Assembly (NCBI RefSeq): GCF_965363235.1
Contig: NC_134847.1
Span: 73,290,268 to 73,354,267, forward strand
Direction: 5' to 3'
Length of the DNA stretch: 64,000 bases
From: Mytilus galloprovincialis
Taxonomy: Eukaryota; Mollusca; Bivalvia; Mytilida; Mytilidae
Position numbers and translations under genes: made by a program
Notes under the pieces: generated by a model
Told to the model about the DNA's origin: nothing
Database searches by the model: none
What the model saw: the letters and a program-made list of their open reading frames with translations, nothing else
In this document: positions 6,290-48,864 of the stretch, one piece after another
How the letters are laid out: each line of letters starts with the position of its first letter
How positions within the stretch are numbered: the stretch's first letter is position 1

Positions 6290-7062
6290 TACAGGTAAGT
6301 TTTGGTAGATTGATTTTAATCCAAAATCCTGAATATCATAATATAAACAAAACACTATAATTCAATATACGTGACTGTGTATATTAACAATAAAAATGAG
6401 TGAAAAACAAAACTGTTAGTATTTCTTATTGATGCCGTTTGGCTGATGTACATTAAGTTCCTTTATCCAAAAGCTTTCCCGAACCTGTCGCTGGGCATCA
6501 CTCCAGTGAATGTTCTGTTCAATCACTAGAATTAAAATATATATATATATGAAATATGAATATATTGCAGTAGTTATGTCCAAGTCAATATTCCGGAACA
6601 TTGTGTTTCTGTTTTACAAACTCGGTTTCTGTGTGTAAATGTCATGCTATGCATCAATAATTAAGTGGGACAATAACTATTCTTACGGCGTGAATCCCTG
6701 GGGGTTCATGCATATATATTAGTTAGGAATATGGTCGATGGAGGAATATTCGGAAGCTGAATTGTTGTTCATTCGGAACATTTTTTTTTATCTGTATCAG
6801 CTTCTTGCAATTAAAGGCAATTAATATCTCTTATTAGTTGACTAGTTCGCCATGCCTCATTAATTGTGTTTAGATTAATTTGATGAATTTTTAGAAGGAG
6901 GTACAATAACCGTGTTTTGAAATTTTACGTCTAGAAATCTATTTCTTATTTTTCTATACAGATGTTCAACTTCATCTTTTGTTATATTATATCGGATATC
7001 ATTAGTGAAATATCGATCTGTGAAAAGTTCTCTATTGCGACGTTTTAAATATATTAAATAGA
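6290..7062 (+). repeat. distant third copy of the 32-40 kb duplicated segment
   Basis: Blocks such as TCAATATTCCGGAACATTGT, GTCATGCTATGCA, GGGACAATAACTATTCTTA, TTAGTTCGCCATG and a final TCTCTATTGCGACGTTTTAA occur in the same order and orientation at about 36000-36840, and partly at 32160-33250. It is non-coding and diverged. Confidence 0.75.
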
Positions 7063-10713: not shown

Positions 10714-10868
10714 CAGTGTCACATTGAATGTGTTCAATCGGTAATTCTGGGATCAATTAGCTAGTAGTCTACTCTTTATTTTAAGGTACGGAATCGACCG
10801 AGTTGAAACGGATGAGAATGTGTTAAAAACGATAGATTTGATTTCTAGCTGATAATCATACACTAACT

Positions 10869-11180
10869 ATGGATGTTTTTACAGTAGTGGTATTTCTCTT
10901 TAATGTTGGAGTTGCATATTTTCAGCAATGCACCGTCAAAACATTACGTGTAGATGCAGATAAGACTGGGGCTAGGTTAAAAGGATATAACTATATAACT
11001 TTTTCCAATATTGGTCCGAATGCATGTTACAATGAATGTATCCGAAGAACAAAATGCCGCTCATTTAACTACAACAGTATAACACGAAGATGTGACATTA
11101 ACAAAATGTCTAGTAGCTCAGAAACAGATTTTGTTGACGAAACAAATTGTGTTTATGTTGATATGACACAATACAGAGGG
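10869..11180 (+). CDS. lectin exon 1: signal peptide and PAN/apple domain
   Basis: It encodes residues 1-104. ATG in the context CTATGG is the first in frame. The six-Cys PAN pattern is contained in this one exon. The donor is GGG|GTGAGT at 11181; reading past it adds ten unrelated residues and a stop, which is why a bare ORF call ends at 11213. Confidence 0.92.
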
Positions 11181-14100
11181 GTGAGTAAGATTGTTACTAC
11201 AGATTTATGCTAAGGGCATTGATGTGGACTATCATAGAGTTTCAGTAACTTAGGTTATTCTTTATTCTTCGTTTTGTATATTTGTGGTTTTTACTTTTGA
11301 TTGCATTTGTATGTTTTTTAGTAATTCTTTTTTATTGGTGTTCTTTTATTGGGAGGGGTTTTGGTGATTTGCCTTTTTGAGAATGTTTTGTTTTGTTTTA
11401 TAATTGTATCTGTTGTTTTATTGTTCAGTGGATTTTTTCTTGTTTTCAAATTCAAAGATAATATTGATTTACTCAAAATGAATTGATTACTTCACCAGAG
11501 GGTATCACCAGCCCAGTAGTCAACACTTCGTTGTTGACATGATTGTCAATTATATGGTCATTTCTATAAATTTCCTATTACAACTAATTTGATCTGAGCG
11601 TCACTAATTCTTATGTAGCCGAAATGCGCGTCTGGCGTATACAAGTATTATCCTGGTACCTTTGATAACTATTGGTTACAAATTTTTATAAACAATTCAT
11701 CTTCCTATATCTAATAATGCTACATTTGTATGATATAGGTAAAAAAAAAGCATTTTTTACATTTTTGCTGCATATTTTATCAAAATAAAAAAAAATATTA
11801 TTATGTTTCATAAAAATTGGCATAAATGATCTGCATACATTACCAAGTCATGTATGAAAAGAGAGGTCCATGAACATTTGACTGAACTTATTTGTTATAA
11901 CGACTTTGTTTATTTAACTCGTTATCACAACTAAGCCAAGTAGCAAACTCTTTAAACCCTTAAATAACTCGGGTGAAGCAATATTTCATTATCTGTATTG
12001 AAGCATGCCAACAATTTTTCAATACATTTTTATTTTTCAATATCGTAAAAAGTACATAGATGCTTATGCAATCTAGTATTCTTTTTGGTTTCTTTAGCTG
12101 ACCAGTTAAATTCACTGATTGTTTTCTTTTTTAGAATAAGTATCAGCATAAGTAAAATATACTTTTTTGAATCCTTCATTTGTTCCTGATCTGCTACTGA
12201 TAAAACAAACAAAACAAAAGAGGTCTTCTGTAATGTATCTCTTCCGTTTGAAGAATTCATCTAATACAATTAAAAAATGTAGATTCATCAGTAAAACATG
12301 ACAAGTAATAAAGTATTTCAATTTCTATTATCTTTTTTAGAGTTTTATGTCTTACAACTTCTTTTTTTTATCAATTTGCACTTGTAGTCGAAATTTAGAA
12401 ATCTATAAGAAGACAATAAAAAAGTAAGCTAAGTTGATATAACGAGCCAGAAAATCTACATCGTTTGAACGAATTAGCTAAGTAATCTAAATGAGTAAAC
12501 TAATTTGTTAAATCGAGTTGGCCACTCGTTAATACAACTTTAAGATAAAACATAACTCTGAATCTAACCGGCTTTCGTACTACGTCCTTTCAGTTTCGTT
12601 GTAGTGATAAATTTTACAATATTTCAACCAATAATCTTTTTTAGAAAATAATATATCTTAAATCAACTTTATCCAAATCTAGTGATTAGTATAATAAAAA
12701 GGGAGATTGAGGATAACAGAGGGATATCAAACTTCAACATATAGGTCAAAATCAAACTAACAACGTTACGACAAAAAAAAAAAAGCGGAAAACGACAAAA
12801 ATACAACGTACGTCATGTTGTGTTCTAATATATTGTGGGTTCTCACATACTACCGATTCCACTTCAACATAGACTATTCTGAATTGCCTTTCTCGTCGAT
12901 TATATCATTATATAGCGTTGTAGTTTATATCAATTATGATAATAATTCGTTTAGAAATCGGCTTTATGTGCAAAAGCATGGGTTACTGACACTGATTATT
13001 TACTTTGTTTATACTATTTTTAGGACTCCTATTATGATCCATGTCCCGGCAGCGATGCTTGTGTTAAGGGAGAATTCTGCCAGACTCTGAAAGATAACAT
13101 AAATATATGTAATATAGATGTGAAAGGTAAGGTAAAATTTGTTTTTTATATAGCTATCATTAAAGCTATCATTGCAGTTAAATTATCTATATCATTAAAG
13201 TACACTATGATCGGGTTGTTGTCTCTTTGGCACATTCCCCGTTTCCATTCTCAATTTTATTCATTGTTCCTTTTAACGTGTTTTTCGTTCTATATTTTAT
13301 ATAAATATATATATCTTAGAAATCTGCAAGTGAAATTGCTTTAACAATATATGTTGTGATAGAATAAGTAGGTGTGGTATGATAACCAAGGAGAAACCTA
13401 TCAAACAGAATTCAAAAATACAATGAACCAATTCCAAAAAAGTTAAATCACAAAAAAACTAAACTTAGAGGAAAATCAATTCGAAAAGTCCATAATTACC
13501 GTTTACTCAATTGTGAAAGTGTGGAACAAATCAAACGACAAGTCAACGTCTTGATTTATGACAACAACAAAAATGACGAATAGTACACATAACAGACATC
13601 GATAACGTCATTTAATGACTACCAAGTACCTGACTTTAGACATCCACATTAATTTGTTGTAGGAATACACAGGTTTATGAGCGCGCAACTCCTGTGCTTG
13701 CCTGTAACAATGGTTTAACGACACATCCAAAGACGGAGCTGTAGAAATAAGTTAGGAATGGTCTTAATCATTAGATTGGTTCAAAAGAGAGAAAAAAACG
13801 GATATAAAGAATAAAAAAACACAAAGTACCGTTTGGTTTAAAAAATAAGGCGATGTGGTATGAATGCCAATGAGACAGTTATCCACCGAAGTTTAAACGA
13901 AGAAGATGTAAACAGTTGCATTTAATTACAAGCATATTAACCGAGATATTGGACAAGAGATAAAGTGTTTTATATTGTAGAATTATTTCTCGTTACAATA
14001 ATGAAGATTCGCAGTGATAATTATTATTACATTATATTGATCCAACTAAAAAACCTGTTATTGCAGTGGACAGTAACTAAGACAGATATGTGTAGTTTTT

Positions 14101-26100: not shown

Positions 26101-27172
26101 TAATGACAATTATACGCAATGCTGAGTACCACAACATACGAACAGAGTTCGAATTTTGGTTTTGAGTCATTTACTTTTCTACAGTTATGTACCTTTTAAT
26201 CAATTTGAAAATGTAAACCTCTAAATTGCATAAAGTCTTCTCCAGCTCGAATCAATTTTGTAAAATTTTGTTAAACATTTCTCATAAAATGATAGAGATG
26301 TTATGTACAGGTTTGCATCTATTAAAAAAAAACAGAGATGTGGGTATTATGAAAAATCCGACAACACAAAAAAAAAGCCTTGAGATTTTCATAGAATAAA
26401 AACATATTTCTCTAATTCTCCGTCAACTTTTCCCTTTCTGCACCCATCTTATAAGAAAATTAAATCAACGTGTGGTTCGTTTGATCTCAGTTCTTCATTG
26501 GTTAAAATCAAAGTATGACGTTGAATTTTCTTGCTTTTCTCCGAATTTCTATTGTGAAGGCATGAAAAAGGTGACCAAGCCTGATGACGTCACATAGAAA
26601 GAACAAATCTTTTTTGCCGAAAATTCGAAAAGAAGGAATAAATATCCACCACCAAATCTTGTGTAATACGATATTTATCCACTCTCGATTGTTTAATTTT
26701 AATTATTTAAAACGCTCGACGAGCCTTGCGTTTTATATTTGAATATGTAACTGTCTCGAGTCGATAAATATCGTATTACACTCGATGCAGTGGTAGAATC
26801 CAAATGTCTCATTTTGTTTAAGACCTCTATATATATTGGTTTCTTGACATATGATGTTTTTACTTTTTTAATTTTACTTATTGGGTTGTTGTCTCATTGA
26901 CATATATTACCCATAATCATTTTTTGTCTACTAACTTTTTTTTAGATCAAATGTGGATAGGATTGAATGATCGTCAAACAGAAGGACATTGGGTTTGGGA
27001 TTCTGATAATTCAACACTCACGTATAACGATTGGTCCCCTTCTGAACCAAATGGCGGAAAAAAAGAAAGCTGTTGTATGTTTTGTAAAGCATCATGCTCG
27101 TTAAGTAGTTACAGATGGAATGATGCTCCATGTTATTTTAAATATGGATATGTGTGTGAGAAACTGTTGTAA
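10869..27172 (+). CDS. secreted PAN/apple-domain C-type lectin, five exons, 267 aa
   Basis: Exons join at 10869-11180, 13024-13126, 19517-19596, 21754-21835 and 26946-27172 with GT..AG borders and phases 0, 1, 0, 1, giving one continuous 267-aa frame. Residues 1-18 are a hydrophobic signal peptide. Residues 21-94 form a PAN/apple domain with cysteines at 21, 53, 57, 63, 75 and 94. Residues 105-138 are a small four-Cys module (C111, 117, 123, 133), possibly a partial EGF-like unit. Residues 140-267 are a C-type lectin domain: CLNDW start, WIGL core, EPN (226-228) and WND (250-252). In known C-type lectins EPN with WND coordinates calcium and favours mannose-type sugars. Extra cysteines at 236, 239 and 243 sit in the long loop. 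A secreted glycan-recognition role in mussel haemolymph or mucus is inferred. All four introns are filled with repeats. Confidence 0.93.
11490..11675 (+). repeat. dispersed family A copy in lectin intron 1
   Basis: It has the family's 5' end (GGTATCACCAGCCCAGTAGTC and TTGTTGACATGA) and 3' end (GAGCGTCACTAATTCTTATG, CGCGTCTGGCGTAT, CCTGGTACCTTTGATAACTA), but the middle of the element is deleted. Confidence 0.85.
11676..13023. other. rest of lectin intron 1
   Basis: AT-rich intron sequence. Short minus-strand open frames at 12030-12321 have no domain and low-complexity composition. No further repeat was identified. Confidence 0.4.
13024..13126 (+). CDS. lectin exon 2: four-Cys linker module
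   Basis: It encodes residues 105-138 plus the first base of codon 139. The acceptor is TATTTTTAG and the donor GTAAGG. The sequence reads DSYYDPCPGSDACVKGEF followed by two more cysteines. Incoming phase 0 and outgoing phase 1 match both neighbours exactly. Confidence 0.87.
13205..13265 (+). repeat. family E terminal tail
   Basis: GATCGGGTTGTTGTCTCTTT, then CACATTCCCC and TTTCCATTCTCAATTTTA. Only the last 60 bp of the element are present. Confidence 0.75.
13840..13930 (-). repeat. family B 3' fragment
   Basis: Reverse-strand GATGTGGTATGAATGCCAATGAGACA end of family B, with the start of its internal part. It lies in lectin intron 2. Confidence 0.65.
13990..14480 (+). pseudogene. LINE 3' end with zinc-knuckle (zf-RVT-like) fragment
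   Basis: The frame at 14060-14198 reads LLLQWTVTKTDMCSFCKQEE and then HYILKCRYLNKFW. The CxxC..H..C arrangement with a following aromatic residue is typical of the C-terminal region of LINE reverse-transcriptase polyproteins. A stop follows, and frameshifted remnants of the same protein tail appear to continue to about 14470. No catalytic domain is present, so this is a 5'-truncated dead copy inside lectin intron 2. It belongs to a different retroelement lineage from the YIDD family relics elsewhere. Confidence 0.7.
15110..16690. mobile_element. possible decayed foldback element
   Basis: The left half (15165-15380) is rich in TCTTGAC/TCTCGAC words and the right half (16060-16290, 16515-16660) in the complementary GTCAAGAC/GTCGAGA words, with about 650 bp of AT-rich centre. 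This resembles the foldback element at 52983-54072, but arm pairing by eye is poor. Confidence 0.3.
16310..16508 (+). repeat. family B variant, inserted in the foldback-like right arm
   Basis: Begins near TAAGGCCGTTAGTTTTCTCG, contains GTTGAAGGCCGTACGGGCACC, and ends CGCATTGGCAATCATACCACATCTT. TCTTGAC-type arm sequence resumes on its far side, so it is a later insertion. Confidence 0.75.
16915..17112 (-). repeat. dispersed family C copy
   Basis: The minus strand carries TTTTGCCATTTGATTAGGGA, CGTTTGATGTGTTTGAGC-like and CACCATTTTC-like blocks. It is the same element as at 32935, 33525, 35800, 48865 and 49650. Confidence 0.7.
17118..17492 (+). repeat. dispersed family B, long copy
   Basis: Near-complete copy: AAAACTTTTAATCCCGCTGC, a 'GTCAGGAATCTGATGTTC' block, TTAGACCGTTGGTTATCTCG, GCTTGCTGTTCGGTGTGAGC, then CTCATTGGCACTCATACCAC at the end. 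The 62-codon and 64-codon open frames here are shadows of the repeat. Confidence 0.85.
17493..18480. other. lectin intron 2, no feature
   Basis: AT-rich intron sequence; no coding or named repeat signal. Confidence 0.4.
18485..18610 (+). repeat. family B variant, 3' part
   Basis: GGTAACCTTCTGTTTCATTT followed by GGTCTCGGGTGGATAGTTG and CTCATTGGCAATCATATCAC. Confidence 0.65.
19195..19422. repeat. 122-bp direct tandem duplication
   Basis: The block TTGCATTAGCTTATGTGCAT..TTTTTGTCTTTCT recurs about 122 bp downstream as TTGCTTTAGCTTATGCACAT..TTTTTGTCTTTCT. It lies just upstream of lectin exon 3. Confidence 0.75.
19517..19596 (+). CDS. lectin exon 3: start of the C-type lectin fold
   Basis: It completes codon 139 and encodes residues 140-165, CLNDWISFSNHCYLFV and then a W..NAK helix, typical of the first strand and helix of a C-type lectin domain. 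The acceptor is ATTTACAG and the donor GTAATT. Phases are 1 in and 0 out. Confidence 0.92.
20519..20784. mobile_element. small terminal-inverted-repeat element (MITE candidate)
   Basis: A left TTATTTCAACTGATCGGGCG..GAGCTT motif pairs with the reverse complement of AAACTCCGCCCAGTCAAGTG..AAATAA on the right. Arms are about 25 bp with a few mismatches, and the span is 266 bp without coding capacity. It lies in lectin intron 3. No target duplication was confirmed. Confidence 0.5.
21140..21366 (-). repeat. family D copy
   Basis: The plus strand reads AGGCAGCAGTAGTATACCGC, then the complement of the family D body up to TTCATGACTTGGAACATGACA. It lies in lectin intron 3. Confidence 0.75.
21754..21835 (+). 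CDS. lectin exon 4: middle of the C-type lectin domain
   Basis: It encodes residues 166-192 plus one base: VQCQTGEGYLVKIENSEE then NTWIKS. The GYLVKI segment is the conserved second strand and loop of the fold. The acceptor is TGTTGTAG and the donor GTATAT. Phases are 0 in and 1 out. Confidence 0.9.
22005..22082 (-). repeat. family C fragment
   Basis: The minus strand carries TTTGATTTTGTCATTTGATT and a following GTTCAGTATTTTTG-like end. It directly abuts the truncated SINE that follows. Confidence 0.65.
22085..22292 (+). mobile_element. SINE, 5'-truncated copy
   Basis: The body matches the SINE at 55212-55560 in order: TTGCGAGTATGGTCTT, AGACGATAAATGGCTGACCC, 'ATGCCGCTACAAGGCA', 'GAAAGGGATTACT' and the AAATAAATATGTTTAAA tail. 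The tRNA-like head is missing. Confidence 0.8.
22440..22992 (+). pseudogene. RT-family retroelement: degenerate C-terminus and 3' region
   Basis: The translated remnants include a PIVNF-like and an IRYSRAF-like stretch (22465-22560) and a KTSLRKFYGCHHELVDRYEI-like stretch near 22620-22690, broken by frameshifts. These are C-terminal motifs of the same reverse transcriptase as at 9255. The following non-coding tail (GTGCCACATGTGGAGCAG, CACCCCCAGTTTTTGGTGGG, TGAGTTTGACTGTTCCTCTG, then a 'GGCCCCTCTTTT' end) is the 3' end that recurs in minus orientation at 40362 and 41614. The 89-codon frame at 22797 is a shadow of this tail. Confidence 0.75.
23155..24465 (+). repeat. dispersed family F, near full-length, with CGTC-rich head
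   Basis: Starts at TTTAGCTCATCTCTCCC/AAGGGTCAAGTGG, then a GTCCGTCGTCGTC microsatellite (23210-23320), repeated 'CTCTGAAACTACTGAGACAA'-type blocks, a 'CAATTGACCCCTTATTGAGC' block, and ends with ACAGGCTCTTGAGAGCCTCTAG. It is a common bivalve interspersed element in my experience; the transposon class is not determined. It is interrupted by a family B insertion at 24035-24300. Confidence 0.7.
24035..24300 (-). repeat. family B insertion inside family F
   Basis: The plus strand reads GAAGATGTGGTATGAGTGCC, the complement of the GTGTTGAAGACC region, 'GGAGCCATGGCTCACACC' and 'AAAACCAACGGGTTAG'. Family F resumes after it near 24300. Confidence 0.75.
24466..24997. other. lectin intron 4, no feature
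   Basis: AT-rich sequence; nothing recognised. Confidence 0.4.
25080..26102 (+). pseudogene. family E retroelement: degenerate RT C-terminus plus full 3' region
   Basis: Between 25080 and 25450 the three plus frames give broken pieces resembling the C-terminal part of a reverse transcriptase (VKTFTKFYHRY-like, RKYSSTCRLLIR, GNILYKAPKCQYS), interrupted by stops and frameshifts. The long non-coding tail follows: GGCATGACACGGGTTATGTT, CATCTTCTGACATCAGACTC, GTATAGGGGAGGGTTGAGAT, GGAGCCTCTGGCCTTTG, CGCCTCCGGGTGCGGGAAT and the CACATTCCCCATTTCCATTC terminus. Truncated copies of the tail occur at 7445, 13205 and 38539. It lies in lectin intron 4. Confidence 0.78.
26661..26781. mobile_element. hairpin MITE candidate, 19-bp perfect inverted repeat
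   Basis: GTGTAATACGATATTTATC at 26661-26679 is matched exactly in reverse complement at 26763-26781. The TAATACGATAT core also opens the hairpin at 58646-58747. No coding capacity. It lies 165 bp upstream of lectin exon 5. Confidence 0.7.
26946..27172 (+). CDS. lectin exon 5: calcium and sugar-binding half of the lectin domain
   Basis: It completes codon 193 and encodes residues 194-267 and the stop TAA. Key parts: MWIGLNDRQTEGHWVWD, SPSEPNGG with the EPN motif, a Cys-rich SCCMFCKASC loop, RWNDAPC with WND, and GYVCEKLL. The acceptor is TTTTTTTTAG. Confidence 0.95.
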
Positions 27173-32934: not shown

Positions 32935-33100
32935 GAGATTAAAGCTAGCTTTTAAACCAGGTTTAATCCATCATTTTCTACATAAGAAAATGTCAGGAAT
33001 ATGACAGTTGTTATCAATTTGAGCTTTTGCTTTTGCCATTTGATTCAGGACTTTCCTTATTGATTTTTCCGGAGTTCAGTATTTTTGTGATTTTACTTTT
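32935..33100 (+). repeat. family C copy in unit 1
   Basis: AAACCAGGTTTAATCCATCA, TTTCTACATAAGAAAATGTC, GAATATGACAGTTGTTATC and CCGGAGTTCAGTATTTTTG. Confidence 0.8.
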
Positions 33101-33464
33101 TGCATATATCACTGCAATGTGAAACAAAAATGTTTAAAAAAAATCATTGTTTATTGTTTTCTGTGTATAAATGTTATGACATGCATCAATAGTCCTTAAT
33201 TGGGACAATAAGTATTCTTATTTTTCTTATTTTGATATGTTTATATTTATTTTAGTATGGTTTTAAAATTATGTAAACTTTTTGCATATATCACTGCAAT
33301 GTGAAACAAAAATGTTTAAAAAAAATCATTGTGTATTGTTTTCTGTGTGTAAATGTCATGCCGTGCATCAATAGTCCTTAATTTGGACAATACGTATTCT
33401 TATGTTTCTTATTTTGATATGTTTATATTTATTTTAGTAAGGTTGTAAAATTATGTAAAGCAGT
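33101..33464. repeat. 182-bp tandem duplication, 2 copies
   Basis: TGCATATATCACTGCAATGT at 33101 recurs at 33283, with near-identical sequence throughout (GAAACAAAAATG, CCTTAATT.GGACAATA, a TTTGATATGTTTATATTTAT block). High identity means a recent event relative to the segmental duplication. Confidence 0.93.
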
Positions 33465-34205: not shown

Positions 34206-34826
34206 AATAAAAGCAAAAGTAGTATACCGCTTTTCGAAATTCATAAATCGATTGAGAAAAAAAAACAAATCCTGGTTACAAACTAAAACTGAGGGGAAAA
34301 CATCAAATATAAGAGGAGAACTACGACACAACACTAAAAAGTGACACACACGAAACGAACTATAAAATAACCATGGCCATGTTTCTGACTTGGAACAGGG
34401 TATTTCAAGAAACAAATGGTGGGTTGAATCTGGTTTTGTGGCTAGCTAAACCTTCCGCTTTTATGGCAATGTTAAATGTAATTAAAATGACAACATTACA
34501 TGACAGGACTACAATACAAATTAATGAGAGAACATATAGGAAAGAGAAACACACAAATAATAGCTATCAAAAGGTATCAGGTTTATAATTTGATACGCCA
34601 GAAGCACGTTTCGTCTACACAAGACTTATCAATGACGCTCAGATAAAAAAGTTCGAAATCCAAAACAAGTACAAAGTTGAAGAGCATTGAGGACCAAAAG
34701 TTCCAAAACATTGTGCCTAATACGGCGACGGTTATCTGCCTGGGAAAAGAACATCATTAGTAATTAGGCATATTCATACTTTTGCAAACAGTCAATTTAA
34801 AAAAATGACTATATACTAAATATACA
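34206..34826 (-). repeat. family A+D composite inserted in unit 1
   Basis: On the minus strand family A (34562-34826) is followed directly by family D (34206-34560), the same order as at 28320-29106. The plus strand shows GTAGTATACCGCTTTTCG, GGTGGGTTGAATCTGGTTTT, then GGTATCAGGTTTATAATTTG and ACGTTTCGTCTACAC. The corresponding position of unit 2 (38290-38320) lacks the insert. Confidence 0.82.
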
Positions 34827-35080
34827 TGATAACACTAAAGATATTTTAACTAAATAATCCCACTTTGAAAAAATCTGAAGAAGACAAATGAACTTGTAAA
34901 TTGAAATCGAAATTAACAAAATTATATTAATGTACAAACTAAGATTTACTTATTACTCGAAGTAAATTCTTCGTGCTAAAAACACCAAATCCGGAATTTT
35001 GAATCTGAATACAACTATCGTGCTCCAATTATTCTTTTATGACCAAAAGGCCAGCATAAGATGCAAAAAAATCAATCAAT

Positions 35081-35795
35081 CATGCATTCCAATGATATTC
35101 ATTGACATTATTGTTAACATTTGTATAAACAAATCACAACAAATAATTGTAAACTATATACACGTATATGACACGCTATTGGGATGTGAGAAATAGGGGG
35201 CGAACAAAGGTTTTTGATAGACAGGTTCAAAGGCTAAATAACGTACGAAGTTGAAGAGCATTGATGACCCAAAATTCCGAAAGGTTTTGCCAATTAAAAT
35301 TAGGGTATTTGTTTTGGGGGGGAGGGGGGTGGATATTCCTTAGAATTTCGAAGAACTCGCATGGTCATTTGACTGTAAGAAGATAACTTCGTTCAAGATT
35401 TTGTTTACAATACATTTTTTACTTTCACGTGTCTACAACACCTATCACGTGTATGACATTATAACGGACAAGACAGCAAAAACGACTGTATGTGTTCAAG
35501 TAGGTAGAACAATGGACATTTGTTTGTTTACAAAATCAAATAAGAGATAATAATTCTAAATGTGAAATCGAAATCCAAATAAAATATTCAAAACAACATA
35601 TTTTAATCATCCTTTGTAATACATAATTTAATGTGCAAATAAATTTTATGGTTCTTAATGGTAGTCATTTCTAATGTAATATTTGTTTCCTTATGTTTTC
35701 ATATACATTGTTGTCAAAAATACTAAATTTATGCTTGGTATTTAAGATAATATAAGCATTATGCATTCTGTATTGTTTTTATATGGAATTAATAT
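35081..35795. other. spacer between duplication units, no gene
   Basis: It includes a G-rich run at about 35316-35330 and a small family A-like trace near 35235-35300 (GAAGTTGAAGAGCATTGATG, CCAAAATTCCGAAA). Otherwise nothing recognised. Confidence 0.4.
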
Positions 35796-35970: not shown

Positions 35971-37489
35971 ATTTTAACTTATTATAATTGTTTTAAGATA
36001 TATAAATGAAATGTGGATATATCGCAGTAGATATATCTAAGTCAATATTCCGGAACATTGTGTTACTGGCCTTATAGTCCAATTTGGAATTACAGACTCT
36101 TGTTTACAGAAACAATTCAATCTTTCAGTTTACTTTTAAGGATACCTTTCTTACATTGATTTGTATTTCATACAAAGTCAGTGTTACTTTGAAAGAAGTA
36201 TTCATCAATGTTTGCATATGATACAATACTGTAGGTGCTGCCAAAGTATTATGTAAACATTATTGAAAAATATGAGAACAAACGGCATATATATTGAATG
36301 CATTCTTTAATGGTTTACTTCAGAAAAGAAATAAAGGATGCTTGATAGTTTAATAAAAAATTCATATATCATCTCAATTGGGAAAACCATTTTTTACAAA
36401 ACTTTTTCTGTGTGCGAATGTCATGCTATGCACCAAAAGTCCTCAATTGGGACAATAACTATTCTTATTGCGTGAACCCCTGATGGTCTATGGGGGAATA
36501 ATCGGAAGCTTAATTATTATTCATTCGGAACATTTATTTTTCTCATCTGCTCATCAGCTTCCTGCAACTACGAGCAATTAATCTCTCCTACTAGTTGATT
36601 AGTTCGCCATGTCTCATTAATTAATTCTAGATAAATTTTATGAATTTTCATAAGCAGGTACCGTTCCGTGTTTATGTCCTTATTATTCTTTTTGAAAGTT
36701 TACGTCTGGGAATCTATTTCTTTTTTTTTTCTCTATATAATAGATGTTGAACTATATCTTTTATTATAATATAGCTGATATCATAAGTGAAATAGCGATC
36801 TGTGAAAATTTCTCTATTGCGACGTTTTAAATATATCTTTAATATACGGACGCCCACTTAGACCTCCAAAAAAACAATAATTTGAATTCGAAATTACGAA
36901 TTGAAATCGTTATCAGGAATTGTATTATTCATTATAACAGATTTAATATGTGATAACGAGTTACTGAAAATCGTTATAACAGATTTTGTAATTCGTTATT
37001 ACCTCTAAGTTCGTAATCACGTATTTTTTTGTAATTTGTGATAACGATTTAAATTATTTGTAATAAAAACGTTAAATATGCAACGGATAGACAAAAAACC
37101 TTAATAAAGACCAACAAAAGTAATGAATTAACCACGTACTCTCAATACAAAGTATAACCCAATGATGAAAAACCTGAGTAAAAATTATAAGAAAACATTG
37201 AAAACATTGGACCCATCTGCAAAAAGACAAACAATACAGAGAACTTTTCTCCCAGGTTTCTATCATAGCATATAAACGCAACTGCGAAGTCAAGGTAGCA
37301 GTTAGGAGACTATTGAAAACAAAAGCCATGTTTTAACAGTTTAAAACAAAAAATCCTTAAACCCTGTAAACATTCTAAATTATAGGCAACAAACATAAGT
37401 TAGCAAACACAGTGTTAAGTCTTGATTTTTATTACGTATGTTGGTTGAAGGAACCGCAATTCTTTATAATCGAATTTTTCTGCGACTGA

Positions 37490-37680
37490 AATGGTTATAT
37501 AATATTTTCGTATGCTTGCCAATGAGACAACTTTTGATCAAAGATTAAATCTCATATGTGTAAGCAATCTTGATCACAGTGTTATACAATTCGAACAAGA
37601 TGTAAATCAATGACCATATTTATATACAAAACGACGAAAAATAGACACGATTGTAATAAGCCAAAAAAAGATTAAGGATA
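37490..37680 (-). repeat. degenerate family B-like fragment
   Basis: CTTGCCAATGAGACAACTTT is the reverse complement of the family B end; the rest is strongly diverged. Confidence 0.4.
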
Positions 37681-38417
37681 CGGTTTTTCTTACTTTGATA
37701 TGTATATATGTATACATTTTAGTTTGATTGTAAAATTATATAAAGCGGTTTCACTTTGTGAACCTAATTTTGGTCAGATACCGATTAAATGGTAAAATTA
37801 ATGATAAAGGCATGTCCTTTGTTTAATTTCATGTTTGGAATTCTTAATTTACATAAGTGAGGCTGCTGATATATTGTGTGTTAGATTGATCAACGTTTTT
37901 GCTTACTTTTTAACTTTTTAATAAACGTGTATATGTACTACAACTTTTTTTCCGTCTTACACTAAAGGCTAAAAGTTACGACACAGGGTAAGATGGAGGC
38001 AGTACGGAAAAGTTATATGGAGTTGTATGTGTACAGCAGTCAAAAAGTATTTGAATTTTGGTTGATTTGAGGTCCTGAATTTCCTGTGAGAAGTAAATAT
38101 TTGTTTACCCTATTTTAACCACTAGTCCACTGCCCCGGACTAGTTAATATTTATTTGGTTTAAAGTATTCGTAAAAAGTATTTAGAGACATAAGAAATAT
38201 TACCGAATATTGGTCTTCGGGCTAATATATTTGGGATATAATAGTTTAATAAACTTTATCTAAAATTTCCAACCCAAAATATTAAATACTCCGCTCACAT
38301 CATGCACATTTAAGCGCAGGATATCTTAACTTTATAATTCCCGTTCTGAAAAAATTAGAAGAAGACGAATGAGCTTGTAAATTGGGATCGAAATTAACAA
38401 AACTATATAAATGTACA

Positions 38418-38426
38418 TGTTCCGGA
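38418..38426 (+). repeat. left terminal inverted repeat core
   Basis: TGTTCCGGA, followed by TAATATGAGTA; the right end in reverse complement is TGTTCCGGA followed by CCAAATGAGTA. Confidence 0.8.
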
Positions 38427-38523
38427 TAATATGAGTACTTGGACCAGAATAAGTCAATATAGCAACGTAGAAAAAAATGGAATTTATGCTGAATTTCTTA
38501 AATGGTAATTGTAGATTTAATAG

Positions 38524-39151
38524 TTTGTCATTGTGAATAAAATTGAGAATGGAAATGGGGAATGTGCCAAAGAGACAATAACCCGGCCATAGAAAGAAAA
38601 AACAACAGCAGAAGGTCACCAACAGGTCTTCAATGTAGCGAGAAATTCCAGCACCCGGAGGCGTCCTTCAGCTTGCCCCTAAACAAATATATACTAGTTC
38701 AGTGACAGTGAACGCCATACTAATTTCCAAATTGTACACAAGAAACTAAAATTAAAATAATACAAGACTAACAAAGGCCAGAGGCTCCTGACTTGGGACA
38801 GGCGCAAAAATGCGGCGGGGTTAAACATGTTTGTGAGATCTCAACCCTCCCCCTATACCTCTAGCCAATGTAGAAACGTAAACGCATAACAATACGCACA
38901 TTAAAATTCAGTTCAAGAGAAGTCCGAGTCTGATGTCAGAAGATGTAACCAAAGAAAATAAACAAAATGACTATAATACATAAATAACAACAGATTACTA
39001 GCAGTTAAGTGACATGCTAGCTCCAGACTTCAATTAAACTGACTGAAAGATTATGATTTCATCATATGAACATCAGGCACAATCCTTCCCGTTAGGGATT
39101 TAGTATCATACCATCATAACATATATGAGCAGAACATTTGTCATTGTGAAT
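38524..39151 (-). mobile_element. family E retroelement insertion with 15-bp target duplication
   Basis: TTTGTCATTGTGAAT flanks the insert exactly at 38524-38538 and 39137-39151. The insert (38539-39136) is a 598-bp family E 3' end in minus orientation, starting at the TGTTCTGCTCATATATG point, so it is 5'-truncated and lacks any RT sequence. Long exact target duplication with 5' truncation is the signature of target-primed retrotransposition. Confidence 0.9.
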
Positions 39152-39420
39152 GTATTCATATGTTCCAGAGCATATAATTATTTGGACCATACGCGTATAT
39201 ACTTATATGGTTGGACCATATGAGTATATACACGTTTGGGTATTAACAGACCAGACCATATGAGTAATTGGACCATAAATATAATTTTTTTTTCAAATAT
39301 GCTATAGAAACGTTTCAACTTGAATGATTAACTGTATCTAAAAAAAAACATATTGGTTGTAACATGCATATGCATATGTATGGACTCAAATGCCCCACAT
39401 ATTAAATATTGAAGACGCAG

Positions 39421-39666
39421 TTAGTTTTTATCGTTAACTATATTCTTGCATGTATGCTTAGGGTAACATTTACTTCCACACGGTACAATAGCTTTTCGGC
39501 ATTTGCACGTCTTTGTTGTGCACAATCCTTTGCAGTTCTGTACACGTTGTGCTTGCGAGTGATAATCTAACCTCCTGCGTGCCGTGAGACCATGGGCCAT
39601 GCATTCCGATGTGTCTACTGTCTTTTTAAGAAGCTCTAGATCTCTAATATCGTAACATGATTGCAA
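39421..39666 (-). pseudogene. Cys-rich C-terminal remnant of an integrase-type transposase (KRBA2-like)
   Basis: The 81-codon minus frame reads SCYDIRDLELLKKTVDTSEC, then RRRLDYHSQAQRVQNCKGLC and KTCKCRKAIVPCGSKCYPKH. Dense CxC / CxxxxxxC spacing with HxxC is a tail that I associate with invertebrate 'KRAB-A domain-containing protein 2-like' transposon proteins, which carry an rve integrase core upstream. No integrase core (DDE) is visible here; the frame is closed by a TGA about 15 bases upstream of the first usable codon (TTG), so only the tail survives. It lies between the inverted ends of the 38418-40068 element, supporting its identity as the remnant of that element's transposase. Confidence 0.6.
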
Positions 39667-40059
39667 CGTGTTTACTCTTCATACTGGTGACTGTTTGTCC
39701 GTTAGTAAAACAGTTGACTTCTTGTTTGACAGTTCACAAAAATCTTAATTTGGATTGTTATAACGAATCAGTAATGACCATACATTTAAAATTGTAATTG
39801 ACTAGTAGGTAAAACTAACTTTGTTATACTTCTAATTTATTATTTAGTCATTCTTGTTATTATTTCAATATAGTAAAATGACCCTTGATAACGTCTTTTA
39901 AATGACGAGACAACTAGAAGGATAATACCTTAGTTATGTAGAGTTAAGTATTTAAAGTAAACGTGGTAGTTATCCCGACTATACGCGTACGGTCGGACCA
40001 TATGCGTATATACCCATATTGTCATGACCATACGCGTAATTATCCTATTACTCATTTGG

Positions 40060-40068
40060 TCCGGAACA
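40060..40068 (-). repeat. right terminal inverted repeat core
   Basis: TCCGGAACA, the exact inverse of the left terminus, followed by the TACA target duplication. Confidence 0.8.
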
Positions 40069-40361
40069 TACATACTAAGCTTTACCATTACTCGAAGTAA
40101 AATTTGTGTGCCCAAAACACCAAATCCAGAATTTAATTGGTTAAACTATGAGTCTGAATACGACTATCGTGCTCCAATAGGTTATGACAAAAAGGCCACT
40201 ATTAGATACAAAAAAAGAAAAAGCAAGAAGACACATAAAAGAAACATCACTCAGCAGAGGAGAACTGACAGTCATATATCTGAGAGGCAATGTATACCAA
40301 AAAGTTTTGATGTAACGTGTCACTTGTCTTATGTTTTTTAAGTTGTTCAAATCTTTTAAAA

Positions 40362-40740
40362 GAGGGGCGAAAGATACCAGAGAGACAGTCAAACTCATAG
40401 ATTGAGAATAAACTCAAAAAGAGAAAGACAAATAGACAAACATTGGAACACAACATACAACATAGAAAACGAAAGACTAAGCAACACGAACCCCATCAAC
40501 GACTGGGGGTGATGTCAGATGCTCCGGAAGGGTAATCAGATCCTGCTCCACATGTGGGACCCGTCGTGTTGCCTATGATATTACAAACCCGGTAAATAGT
40601 CTAATTCGGTAGGTTATAATCATGAAAAGGGACAAGGATTGTATACAACACATAAGGAACATATCCGCTATCATCTGTGAAACGGTTATTCCATAACGGT
40701 CAAAATGCAACCAACTGGTGATGGCGTCCGTAAAATTTAT
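40362..40740 (-). repeat. RT-family retroelement 3' end, 5'-truncated
   Basis: The plus strand reads AGAGGGGCGAAAGATACCAG, CAACGACTGGGGGTGATG, GATCCTGCTCCACATGTGG, GTCTAATTCGGTAGG and GGTGATGGCGTCCGTAAAAT. It is the inverse of the 22620-22992 tail; the RT coding part is absent. The open frames at 40024-40456 are shadows. Confidence 0.82.
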
Positions 40741-41290
40741 TTTAAATATTGTCGATTTATTAAATCCAAGTAAGTGAACAGAAATTGAATATTACATGCA
40801 GCAATAACAGTGTGTTTCTTTGCTTTAGTATTGTCAGCTGTGTGTAAGGATTTTGGACCCGGAATTCTCTCTTTAACATTACAAAAAATCGTTGAAATTA
40901 CTGAACTAAAATAAACATTAAGTGTTTTCTTATTCAAATTAATACAATGTAACTTTTTGTTGTGTTGTCGTTTTTTGTTTTGTTGTAAAGATTCTTTTTT
41001 TATGCACAATCCTTTGAAATTCTAATAAAGACATAATTAATGAAAGTGACAGGTATAACATTATTTCCCGCTTTATTTTGTAAATGCAAAAAAAAGCCTA
41101 GACTTTAGATTTAGCTCCCTATAACTAAGCGTTGTAAGTACAACACGAGATGGGAGGAAACATCAACACGACCACTACAAGTCGACAAAAATGATAAAAT
41201 AAAACGAGAGTTCAGCATATCTTACTCCTCATTTCCAAAACTAAAAAAAAAAGTTTGTTATTATACAACCAATTTCTATATTTGTTATAT
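40741..41290. other. intergenic, nothing recognised
   Basis: AT-rich; the 90-codon minus frame at 40737-41009 starts inside the neighbouring repeat and has no domain. Confidence 0.4.
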
Positions 41291-41438
41291 ATATTAGTCA
41301 TTTCGAGGACTTTTAAAGCTGCCTATGCGGTATGGGCTTTGTTCATTGTTGAAGGCTGTAGGTGACCCATACTAGTTGTTAATTTCTGTGTTATCTGGTC
41401 TTTTGTGGAGAATTGTACCACATCTTTTTATATTCACG
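41290..41438 (+). repeat. family B variant
   Basis: AGTCATTTCGAGGAC, GCCTATGCGGTATGGGCTTT, TTGTTGAAGGCTGTAGGTGA and a GTACCACATC end. Confidence 0.75.
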
Positions 41439-41613
41439 ATATAATGCAGATTATTTATTGCTTCGGTTGATTTATTCATGATATATTAATATATTTTATT
41501 AACAAACCCATGTGTCGTTTACTCGTTGACATCTTTTTTTCTTATTTATCTAAAAATAAGAAAATGGGGTATGATCGCCTATTATACTTTTCATCAGGAA
41601 CCAAATTACGTAT

Positions 41614-42195
41614 AAAAGAGGGGCGAAAGATACCAGAGGGACATTTAAACTCATTATAATTATGATAGCTAGAAAAAAAAAACTGATAACGTCATCTGGC
41701 TGAAAAAGAAAAGGACAAACAGACAAAATATATACACATTAAACAGTATAGAAAACTAAAGACTAAAGAACACGAACCTCACCTAAAAAATGGGGTGATC
41801 TCATGTGCTCCAATACGGTAAGCAGATCCTGCTCCACATGTTGCACCCGTCGTGTTGCTCATGTGAATACAAATCCGGTAAATAGTCTAATTCGGTAGGT
41901 CACATTCATGAAAAGAGAACAGGATTGTAGTTACGAAATAAGGAACATATCCGATTTCATCTGCGAAACGGATTTTCCATAATGGTCAACCAACTCAAGA
42001 TGTCGTCCGTAAAATTAATGAAGGGATGATTTCAACCTCACCATTTGGAACTCTTGATTAAATAGCTTCCTTGCGAGCAACAAACCTCTATCAAGAATAT
42101 CATGATAGGAAATAGAAGCCCGGGAGTATCGTATCAAGTTGGAGATATAAACTCCGTATGCAGGCGCTGCTGCAATGTACGGAATTTATTGTTTG
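41614..42195 (-). pseudogene. RT-family retroelement: RT C-terminus and complete 3' tail
   Basis: On the minus strand, 42190-42030 translates to APAYGVYISNLIRYSRASIS, then HDILDRGLLLARKLFNQEF and MVRLKSS, the C-terminal motifs of the same family as the 9255 relic. The tail from about 42015 to 41614 matches 40362-40740 and ends TTTCGCCCCTCTTTTATAC. The copy is 5'-truncated within the RT domain, so no YIDD box remains. Confidence 0.85.
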
Positions 42196-42855
42196 CAATT
42201 CTACTGCTTCTTTACAAAACTTGTTTGGTGGTTTTAGTACGTACAATGAGACTTCTCTAGATTAGATGTGAATTAGACACGGGTTGTTAAAAATGTGATA
42301 GGTATCTAAAAGAACAAAAAAACGAGAGCTTTGAAACACTTGTGTACTACACCCCGTCCATCCCAATATTCCTTATTGAAATGTAAAGAAAGATAAGTTT
42401 TAACTTTGTTCAGTTGATAAGAACGAGCACCATACAGAAACAAATACCGGAGATATATTTCATTTGCACCAAAATAAAATATGTCGTTCGCGCCAAGAGG
42501 ACAGGTAAATAGAATAAAAATAGTTAATGCAAAAAAACTTTAAATTGTAACTTAAAACACATGCAGTTTGTGGTTGCATAATACTACATATCCCTCCGAA
42601 ATCAGTCAACGTAACCATATTGAAATCATTATACGTTCTTAATAAATAAGACTTTTCCTGATAATGTTAAAACACAGCTCTGTTATTTAACATTATTATA
42701 AAATCTAAAAGAGAGCGCTATACACTGACATGGAACCAACAGTCTGTTTTGACACGAGACTTGTGAGCAGTGGCTCTGACGTACTCATGAACACTGGAAA
42801 ACTTAATGTGTGATCATAAAAAAACTACAGACTTATGATCACTTATTTCCTGTAT
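42196..42855. other. intergenic, no firm feature
   Basis: A possible short first exon (ATG at 42481, eight codons, then CAG|GTAAAT) is visible but unsupported. Otherwise nothing recognised. Confidence 0.3.
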
Positions 42856-42857
42856 AT

Positions 42858-43095
42858 AAAAATAAGGAGATGTGGTCTGATTGCAAATGAGACAATTATC
42901 CATTAAAGTTCAAATGAAGTGGTTGTAAGCAATTATGGGCAACCGTTTGGTCTTCAAAAATGAAAAATTCCCATACCGTTTAGTTGGCTAGAAATAGCCC
43001 TGACAACCACTGAATTACAGGCTCCTGACTTGGGACAGGCACATACATGTACATACAGAATGCGGCTGGGGAGAGTTAAACATGTAAGGTTCTGT
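42858..43095 (-). repeat. mosaic of family B and family E fragments
   Basis: AAATAAGGAGATGTGGTCTG and AATGAGACAATTATCC are the family B end; GGCTCCTGACTTGGGACAGG with GCGGCTGGGG..GTTAAACATGT is the family E middle. Both are in minus orientation. Confidence 0.65.
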
Positions 43096-47599: not shown

Positions 47600-48430
47600 T
47601 CACGTTATGTAATGCTGTTTAAATCCAAAAACCTTATAATCCCAACTGTACATTTGAAATATCTCATTTTCAAGATGCCTGTTATAAAACAAATGTAGTT
47701 TGTTTGCTGTTCCTACAGTATGGTTTCTGTATCTTTGTGATAATTCGTCTGACTTAAGCCATGTTTCTACTTTTGAATTCCATGCTCCAATCTTTGTCAA
47801 CAAAGCTTTTGTAAACTTTGAAATATTTCCAAATTTTCCTATCATCATCTCCTTGTAAAAATGAAGAGGTGCTCGTACTTGAGATTCCCAGTGAGAATTT
47901 CTTTTACATGTTTTTATCACTTTAAACAATTCTTCAAACGAACTGATATTTACTCTACACAATTTTTGAGTAAAAGGTGATCTTACTACTTTGTCAAGGT
48001 AAAGTGATAGCAATCTCTCCCGAGGCTCTCTGACAAATGTGGCCTTTGTCCAATTTTTACTGTACATCATATAAGTAATTTCAGTGGCATTAAAATCCCT
48101 TAAAAACGTAAATCCGCTTTTTTTAGGATCCTGTAATATGAATGGTTTCCGAACTGTGGAAATATTCTGAATATAATGCAGCAGATATCTCCAATAAGTT
48201 GACGCCGATTTTTGATTATAAAAAAAGATAAGTTTGTATGAAGGAAGTACAATTGGACACGTGCGTGGTGCTCTGTCTCGGGTTAGAATTCTAATTTCAT
48301 GTGGTGTTAACATGAGAACATCGTCTTTCACTTTCCAATTATATTTAAGATAGTTTTGAATTTTATTCCTGTTTATAAATACAACTATCGTTATCACTAT
48401 AAATATTACTTTTAGCTTAAACCTTTCCAT
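47600..48430 (-). CDS. Golgi carbohydrate sulfotransferase (Sulfotransfer_2 type), intronless ORF, 276 aa
   Basis: Type II membrane protein: a short cytosolic MERFKLK, a membrane anchor at about residues 8-20 (VIFIVITIVVFIN), a stem, then the catalytic part. A 5'-phosphosulfate-binding-like segment FFYNQKSASTYWRYLL lies at 69-84, and the 3'-phosphate-binding motif FVREPRERLLSLYLDKV at 132-148, the hallmark of carbohydrate sulfotransferases that use PAPS. N-glycosylation motifs NIS, NAT and NWT are present. The frame is open to an upstream ATG at 48463 (287 aa), but that stretch reads TGTTTGTTTCAG|CGAAAT, a good splice acceptor at 48447-48448, so I start at 48430 with purine at -3 and G at +4, preceded by a spliced 5' UTR. 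The ORF lies antisense and just downstream of receptor exon 3. Exact acceptor sugar is unknown. Confidence 0.9.
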   Translation of the reverse strand: MERFKLKVIFIVITIVVFINRNKIQNYLKYNWKVKDDVLMLTPHEIRILTRDRAPRTCPIVLPSYKLIFFYNQKSASTYWRYLLHYIQNISTVRKPFILQDPKKSGFTFLRDFNATEITYMMYSKNWTKATFVREPRERLLSLYLDKVVRSPFTQKLCRVNISSFEELFKVIKTCKRNSHWESQVRAPLHFYKEMMIGKFGNISKFTKALLTKIGAWNSKVETWLKSDELSQRYRNHTVGTANKLHLFYNRHLENEIFQMYSWDYKVFGFKQHYIT

Positions 48431-48445
48431 TTCAGAGGTTATTTC

Positions 48446-48458
48446 GCTGAAACAAACA
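48446..48458 (-). other. splice acceptor before the sulfotransferase coding exon
   Basis: Minus-strand TGTTTGTTTCAG immediately before CGAAATAACC; 16 bases of 5' UTR separate it from the start codon at 48430. It implies at least one upstream non-coding exon, not located. Confidence 0.55.
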
Positions 48459-48864
48459 TACATTCATTACTTTTTCATCTTAAATGTCATACCAGTGTTT
48501 ATAGTTATCGATCCTTAAATGGATATTATTTATTGGAATAAATATCTACACAGATGGCCATGCTGTACATTTACCAATGAATTATCCCCAGTCTTATATC
48601 AATATAAAATTACACCTGTTCTTTCATATACAGACCATACACAGAACACGTTGCGTCAAAGACATCAGGTTATTACAGACCCTTACAATATATGATGTAA
48701 AATTCTAACCTCCTGGTTGCCCCGATTCAAATATTGTACCGCTGGACATTATCATCAGTCACGCCTCAGTCATTACAGCTGAACGGGTTTGCTGGTTCAG
48801 CTCATAATAACCTGCAAAATACAACGTGTAATTACTGAATGTATGACACAACGACTTATTACTC

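Follow-up and report, generated by a model that had tools for sequence, protein, structure and literature searches.

A probable new Ginger2-like DNA transposon family in Mytilus galloprovincialis and an insertion with two left ends

The Insertion and Its Surroundings

The stretch of Mytilus galloprovincialis DNA analyzed here (the window: 64,000 nucleotides, C10:73290268-73354267 in a 1.38-Gb assembly) carries a PAN domain exon (10842-11210, +; E = 1.7e-07), a C-type lectin exon (26855-27169, +; Lectin_C, E = 1.4e-12), and an open frame of 287 aa that matches Sulfotransfer_2 (47603-48463, -; E = 6.2e-17). It also contains a tandem minisatellite of ~63 bp (1057-1669), the reverse frame of which is open, and a 182-bp tandem duplication (33095-33459; 94%).

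A DNA transposon is inserted at 38418-40068. Its ends are inverted copies of TGTTCCGGA (38418-38426, +, and 40060-40068, -), and TACA is found immediately outside both of them (38414-38417 and 40069-40072). The 27-nt arms at 38417-38443 and 40043-40069 are 81% complementary. TGTTCCGGA occurs four times in the window, against 0.18 expected; the remaining two occurrences, at 6592 and 36049, are unrelated to the element, both lying inside an unrelated paralogous stretch. All 10 matches to GGACCATAYGMGTA in the window (two or fewer mismatches; 0.66 expected) fall within the element. A solo LTR or Gypsy LTR retrotransposon was rejected because the paired ends are inverted rather than direct, and an Rfam search of 36000-43000 gave no match.

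The left side of the element is composite. The outer left terminus (38418-38446, +), with 3 mismatches over 29 bp to the end of the family described below, is followed by a spacer of non-family DNA (38447-38523, +) and by a nested high-copy repeat of ~600 bp (38539-39136, +), a later insertion flanked by the 15-bp duplication TTTGTCATTGTGAAT (38524-38538 and 39137-39151). Right of this repeat lies a second, inner left terminus (39161-39189, +; 4 mismatches over 29 bp), followed by left subterminal repeats of the GGACCATAYGMGTA type (39184-39266, +). The interior holds an 84-aa open stretch, the remnant of a Cys-rich integrase tail (39424-39675, -), and the decayed first part of transposase exon 1 (39691-39778, -), with the deletion junction between the two near 39667-39690. 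The right subterminal repeats (39976-40062) overlap the right terminus (40040-40068, -; 5 mismatches over 29 bp).

A preliminary description of this DNA had proposed a transposon with inverted termini, a TACA duplication, and subterminal repeats of the GGACCATAYGMGTA type, all of which were confirmed. Its outer ends were correct, while the nested repeat and the second left end at 39161 had been overlooked; likewise, the Cys-rich tail that it reported is present, but is not the only coding remnant, as the exon-1 piece shows.

Copies of the Family and Their Target Sites

The family is large: when the genome was searched with the portion of the element that follows the nested repeat, 40 places were scored from 1,362 candidates, and the copy number is to be read as a lower bound. 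An exact 4-bp duplication was seen in 14 of 20 end pairs delimited by hand, a set that includes the copy on C9 (L011), which is no independent pair. An automatic set, which required five or fewer mismatches in each 20-bp end and includes the window copy (L010), gave exact duplications in 22 of 30 cases, duplications with one mismatch in 3, and worse ones in 5; these counts are uncorrected, with L014 and L023 mispaired with an internal motif, L043 and L056 looking like copies of one locus, and L026, which is exact in the hand set, omitted. When flanks were paired across copies as a control, 4 bp matched in 235 of 870 pairs (27%), chance matches being common because the targets are AT-rich.

The 22 exact duplications were TATA (13), TACA (2), TATC (2), TTTA (2), CATA (1), TAGA (1), and TGTA (1). 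The context was R-NNNN-Y in 20 of them and exactly RTATAY in 11, and none was a CCGG or CCGT target of the Ginger1 type. Further copies with both ends and 4-bp duplications, which the preliminary description had suggested looking for, do therefore exist in this genome.

A Longer Copy Encoding an Integrase

With the 84-aa tail of the window copy as the query, 150 matches were scored from 1,075 candidates. The only one of these 150 to lie in an open frame of >200 aa was C7:68959006-68959257, where the frame extends over 613 aa. The element at this locus (C7:68958690-68961688) is 2,999 bp long, is flanked by TATA on both sides, and has TIRs that are near-perfect over about 91-93 bp, with 0 mismatches to the terminus in both 20-bp ends. 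Its predicted gene has two exons with a GT...AG intron, whose borders read GTTAGA...CCTCAG, and would encode about 678 aa. In this gene model, the protein consists, in order, of an H2C2 finger, the residues D185, D245, and E284 (D-59-D-38-E), an Asp-Ser-Gln repeat, and the same Cys-rich tail as the remnant in the window.

The best solved relative by sequence was prototype foamy virus (PFV) integrase (E = 7.8e-11), in a match that spans residues 31-263 of a 584-aa frame and aligns the D, D, and E. Pfam returned Integrase_H2C2 (PF17921) alone for the C7 protein, at E = 0.0017, which is below the curated cut-off, and no match to rve. A scan of viral contigs with the 584-aa frame found no relative, and the 84-aa tail by itself had no match in Pfam or PDB. 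This tail presumably resembles the Cys-rich C-terminal tail of KRBA2 and of invertebrate KRBA2-like integrase proteins; KRBA2 differs in being a host gene in mammals. KRBA2 has been listed as rve-derived (PMC3257199).

Over 147 exon-2 codons compared between the C7 copy and the decayed copy L050, dN was 0.087 and dS was 0.189, which is weak evidence but would agree with past selection on the protein. The C7 copy appears still to encode an integrase that probably moved its sister copies. An autonomous copy with an integrase followed by the same Cys tail was just what the preliminary description had proposed to search for, and this integrase is of the retroviral type.

Compared with the 2,999-bp copy, 35 of 54 other loci join about 585-620 to about 2605-2630, five have about 700-755 fused to about 2747, and the other 14, including the long decayed L050, are arranged otherwise; at least five places occur twice among the 54 (L028/L045, L034/L049, L035/L065, L022/L057, and L037/L062). 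Judging from these shared junctions, the main classes arose by internal deletion, with both ends, the beginning of exon 1, and the tail retained. In the window copy, the junction lies between about 565 and 2587 of the 2,999-bp copy and contains some filler, and on this basis the copy is judged to be a separate deletion derivative. Among 19 short copies, the median K2P is 0.11 (0.05-0.30), whereas values of 0.28-0.40 separate the window copy from each of these 19; it is therefore an old side branch.

Relationship to Ginger2

Ginger2 was described as having 4-bp target-site duplications, RTATAY targets, TIRs of about 50-180 bp, and TGTNR termini, with YPYY and GPY/F given as absent (PMC2836005). 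The family found here resembles the Ginger2/TDD elements of that description in its 4-bp duplications and RTATAY target preference, in its H2C2 finger and DDE integrase, in the TIRs of the C7 copy, which fall within the published range, and in the 2,999-bp length of that copy, which is near those of Ginger2-1_AP (2,885 bp) and Ginger2-1_NV (2,751 bp; PMC2836005). A simple pattern search of the C7 protein detected no YPYY and no GPY/F at the C terminus; the sole GPF, at residue 195, is inside the catalytic domain. Two differences are apparent, namely that both ends of the C7 and window copies read TGTTC instead of TGTNR, departing from it at the fifth base, and that the Cys-rich tail and the Asp-Ser-Gln repeat have no counterpart among the Ginger2 features compared (PMC2836005).

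These same differences, together with the lack of an rve match in Pfam, would suit an integrase-type transposon from another group with the same 4-bp duplication, be it Ginger1 or a sister group as yet unnamed. Ginger1, however, inserts into CCGG or CCGT and carries YPYY and GPY/F (PMC2836005), whereas the targets here are R-TATA-Y and the pattern search found neither motif, and we regard such an assignment as unlikely. Very probably, the element in the window is a cut-and-paste DNA transposon that belongs to a new Ginger2-like family and is a non-autonomous copy with an internal deletion. We call membership in Ginger2 likely rather than established because, in this comparison with the published features of Ginger2, the TGTTC termini miss TGTNR.

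The preliminary description had spoken of a Ginger-like family, possibly undescribed and non-autonomous. This was right as to the type of integrase, although Ginger2-like is the better term in view of the 4-bp duplication, the R-TATA-Y targets, the H2C2 finger with DDE, and the TIR length, with TGTTC as the departure; novelty is supported as well, as the family was unnamed in the searches made. A literature search for three 14-letter stretches of the terminus gave no match. Repbase held 30 autonomous Ginger2 entries in 2022 (PMC10045372), and 98 Ginger elements were identified in a survey of mollusc data (PMC10294476). Such elements are thus on record, and the present family is a new one within a kind of mobile DNA that was known before.

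The N in the name Ginger2-1N1_NV is taken to mean non-autonomous. This 252-bp element likewise accompanies, as a short form, an autonomous Ginger2 family whose TIRs are equally long (PMC2836005, Table 2), whereas the short copies here are mostly about 0.6-1.1 kb long and retain coding remnants on both sides. The endogenous large DNA viruses of crustaceans also have a Ginger2-like integrase, inverted ends, and AT/TA targets (PMC10871703), but their cargo is a viral genome of 265-285 kb, in contrast to the simple transposon described here.

Two Left Ends and an Empty Site

The two flanks of the insertion, when joined with one TACA, align with an uninterrupted paralog at 34701-35200, in which TACA is single (34933-34936); the preserved empty site ~3.5 kb away that had been noted earlier is thus real. 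No excision footprint was seen at this site.

The best-covered family copies span ~9 to 921 of the query, corresponding to 39158-40070 of the window. Since the family is collinear from 39158, the inner TGTTCCAGA at 39161, and not the outer end at 38418, is its regular left end, and the inner left side also forms longer inverted arms with the right side than the outer left side does. A search with 38400-38540 gave eight matches from eight candidates. Besides the window, the spacer is covered by C9:6845171-6845293 (90%) and by C10:73285339-73285466 (88%; the C10-upstream copy), and the remaining five matches comprise the terminus and its AT-rich flank only. The spacer was absent from the other family copies fetched.

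Both spacer copies also match the left flank of the window insertion, to 37927 in C9 and to 37672 in the C10-upstream copy. The right part of the element with its right flank is found on the same strand at C9:6822309-6823252, ~22 kb from the spacer match, and at C10:73281866-73282538, ~3 kb from the spacer match; this C10 sister copy is located ~43 kb upstream of the window copy. An independent insertion in C9 was rejected, as the flanks equal those of the window. We read both as the same insertion, apparently spread by duplication and later interrupted. Because the outer end recurs with the same left flank in both, it belonged to the original insertion. The C10-upstream copy has a decayed right terminus and no recognizable inner end, so that the evidence for the inner end comes from the window and from C9.

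Collinearity with the family, limited to ~39158-39161 through 40070, and the longer inverted arms of the inner end would both fit a mobile unit of 39161-40068, to which the outer terminus (38418-38446) would be added as a separate older fragment with a TACA matching by chance. Yet it is the outer end and the right end that are bounded by TACA, and the empty site joins exactly those flanks, whereas the tetranucleotide preceding the inner end (CATA, 39157-39160) is unlike TACA. Moreover, the outer end with its left flank is common to the window, C9, and C10-upstream copies, and all three copies seen with the outer terminus and spacer also hold the element, which leaves the shorter unit with hardly any credibility. 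A bolder reading, which we offer tentatively and with considerable doubt, is that the insertion moved as one unit with two same-facing left ends ~130 bp apart, enclosing ~100 bp of non-family DNA. A Ginger2-like integrase could then select an outer end and give rise to elements extended at that end; in addition, the family may represent a sub-lineage in which the terminus has changed to TGTTC and the integrase bears a Cys tail. The two-ended unit may have originated through the use of a neighboring end or through a rearrangement of two copies.

Probable Order of Events

Compared with the window locus over long stretches, C9 is 89-94% identical, the C10-upstream copy 77-82%, and the empty paralog 70-75%. 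In the 120 bp left of the site, identities are 92% (window/C9), 87% (window/C10-upstream), and 90% (C9/C10-upstream), while the empty paralog is only 69-75% identical to each filled copy. In the 160 bp on the right, identity to the window is 86% for the C10-upstream copy, 83% for the empty paralog, and 77% for C9, the last value being lower because the C9 sequence departs part way. This right flank separates the filled C10-upstream copy from the empty paralog only weakly. The earlier proposal that the insertion followed the local duplication is accordingly supported on the left flank and less clearly on the right.

Cut-and-paste excision can sometimes be precise. If the element had once been present in the 34.9-kb paralog and had been excised exactly, that paralog would not be ancestral, and the close values on the right (83% against 86%) would be compatible with this. 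The absence of a footprint and the left flank, where the filled copies resemble one another far more than the empty paralog resembles any of them, speak against it; an ancestral empty state is therefore simpler, and we consider precise excision very unlikely. With the empty site taken as ancestral, the simplest order would be a local duplication, insertion into one of the two copies, spread of the filled locus by duplication to C10-upstream and C9, and, once the window copy and C9 had separated, arrival of the nested repeat in the former. We are less sure of the order of the two later duplications. These duplicated filled loci add a younger bound, and the relative age of the insertion is thereby bracketed.

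Proposed Mechanism

The family copies have their ends in common and show 4-bp duplications at R-TATA-Y-like targets; the window insertion has an empty counterpart, and a longer copy with the same ends encodes an integrase. On this basis, we propose that the integrase from longer copies would bind the ~92-bp TIRs through their repeated GACCATAYGMGTA motifs, cut at TGT...ACA, and join the 3' ends to target strands staggered by 4 bp. Acting on shared ends, it could thus have moved the short deletion derivatives in trans. The window copy would have retained both ends, the exon-1 piece, and the Cys tail, and would have brought with it another left end, located ~130 bp beyond its own (the nested repeat not counted). 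It may have integrated by this outer end, taking ~100 bp of non-family DNA along; the locus would then have been duplicated with the insertion in place, before the 600-bp repeat landed in the window copy.

Although the element is otherwise an ordinary repeat, the copies provide, in a mollusc, an almost complete series for a group that has been little studied, comprising a copy with an open integrase frame, a main class of deletions with a common junction, the targets, and an age-bracketed insertion. The family could serve as a model for retrovirus-like integrases acting as cut-and-paste transposases.

Later Insertions into the Copies

In the C9 copy, the 15-mer TTTGTCATTGTGAAT occurs once and the nested repeat is missing. 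A genome search with the whole element gave 42 matches, 40 of which were to the nested repeat; the search scored 40 places from 4,622 candidates, and 38 other copies of the repeat among these are 96-97% identical. The 15-bp target duplication of this repeat resembles that of retroposed DNA, and no poly(A) tail was seen in the window copy.

The C9 copy itself seems to be split by an insertion of ~21.9 kb, at about 6823260-6845170, which has a TTAA duplication and matching inverted ends of 26 bp, GAGGCTGGGACATGAATCATTGAGCT; its two end parts were read, and the ends are contained in L009 and L072. Within ~4.7 kb at one end, there is an open frame of 509 aa with no Pfam match. TTAA and the 5'-RR ends of this insertion fit the description of Kolobok (PMC9587614).
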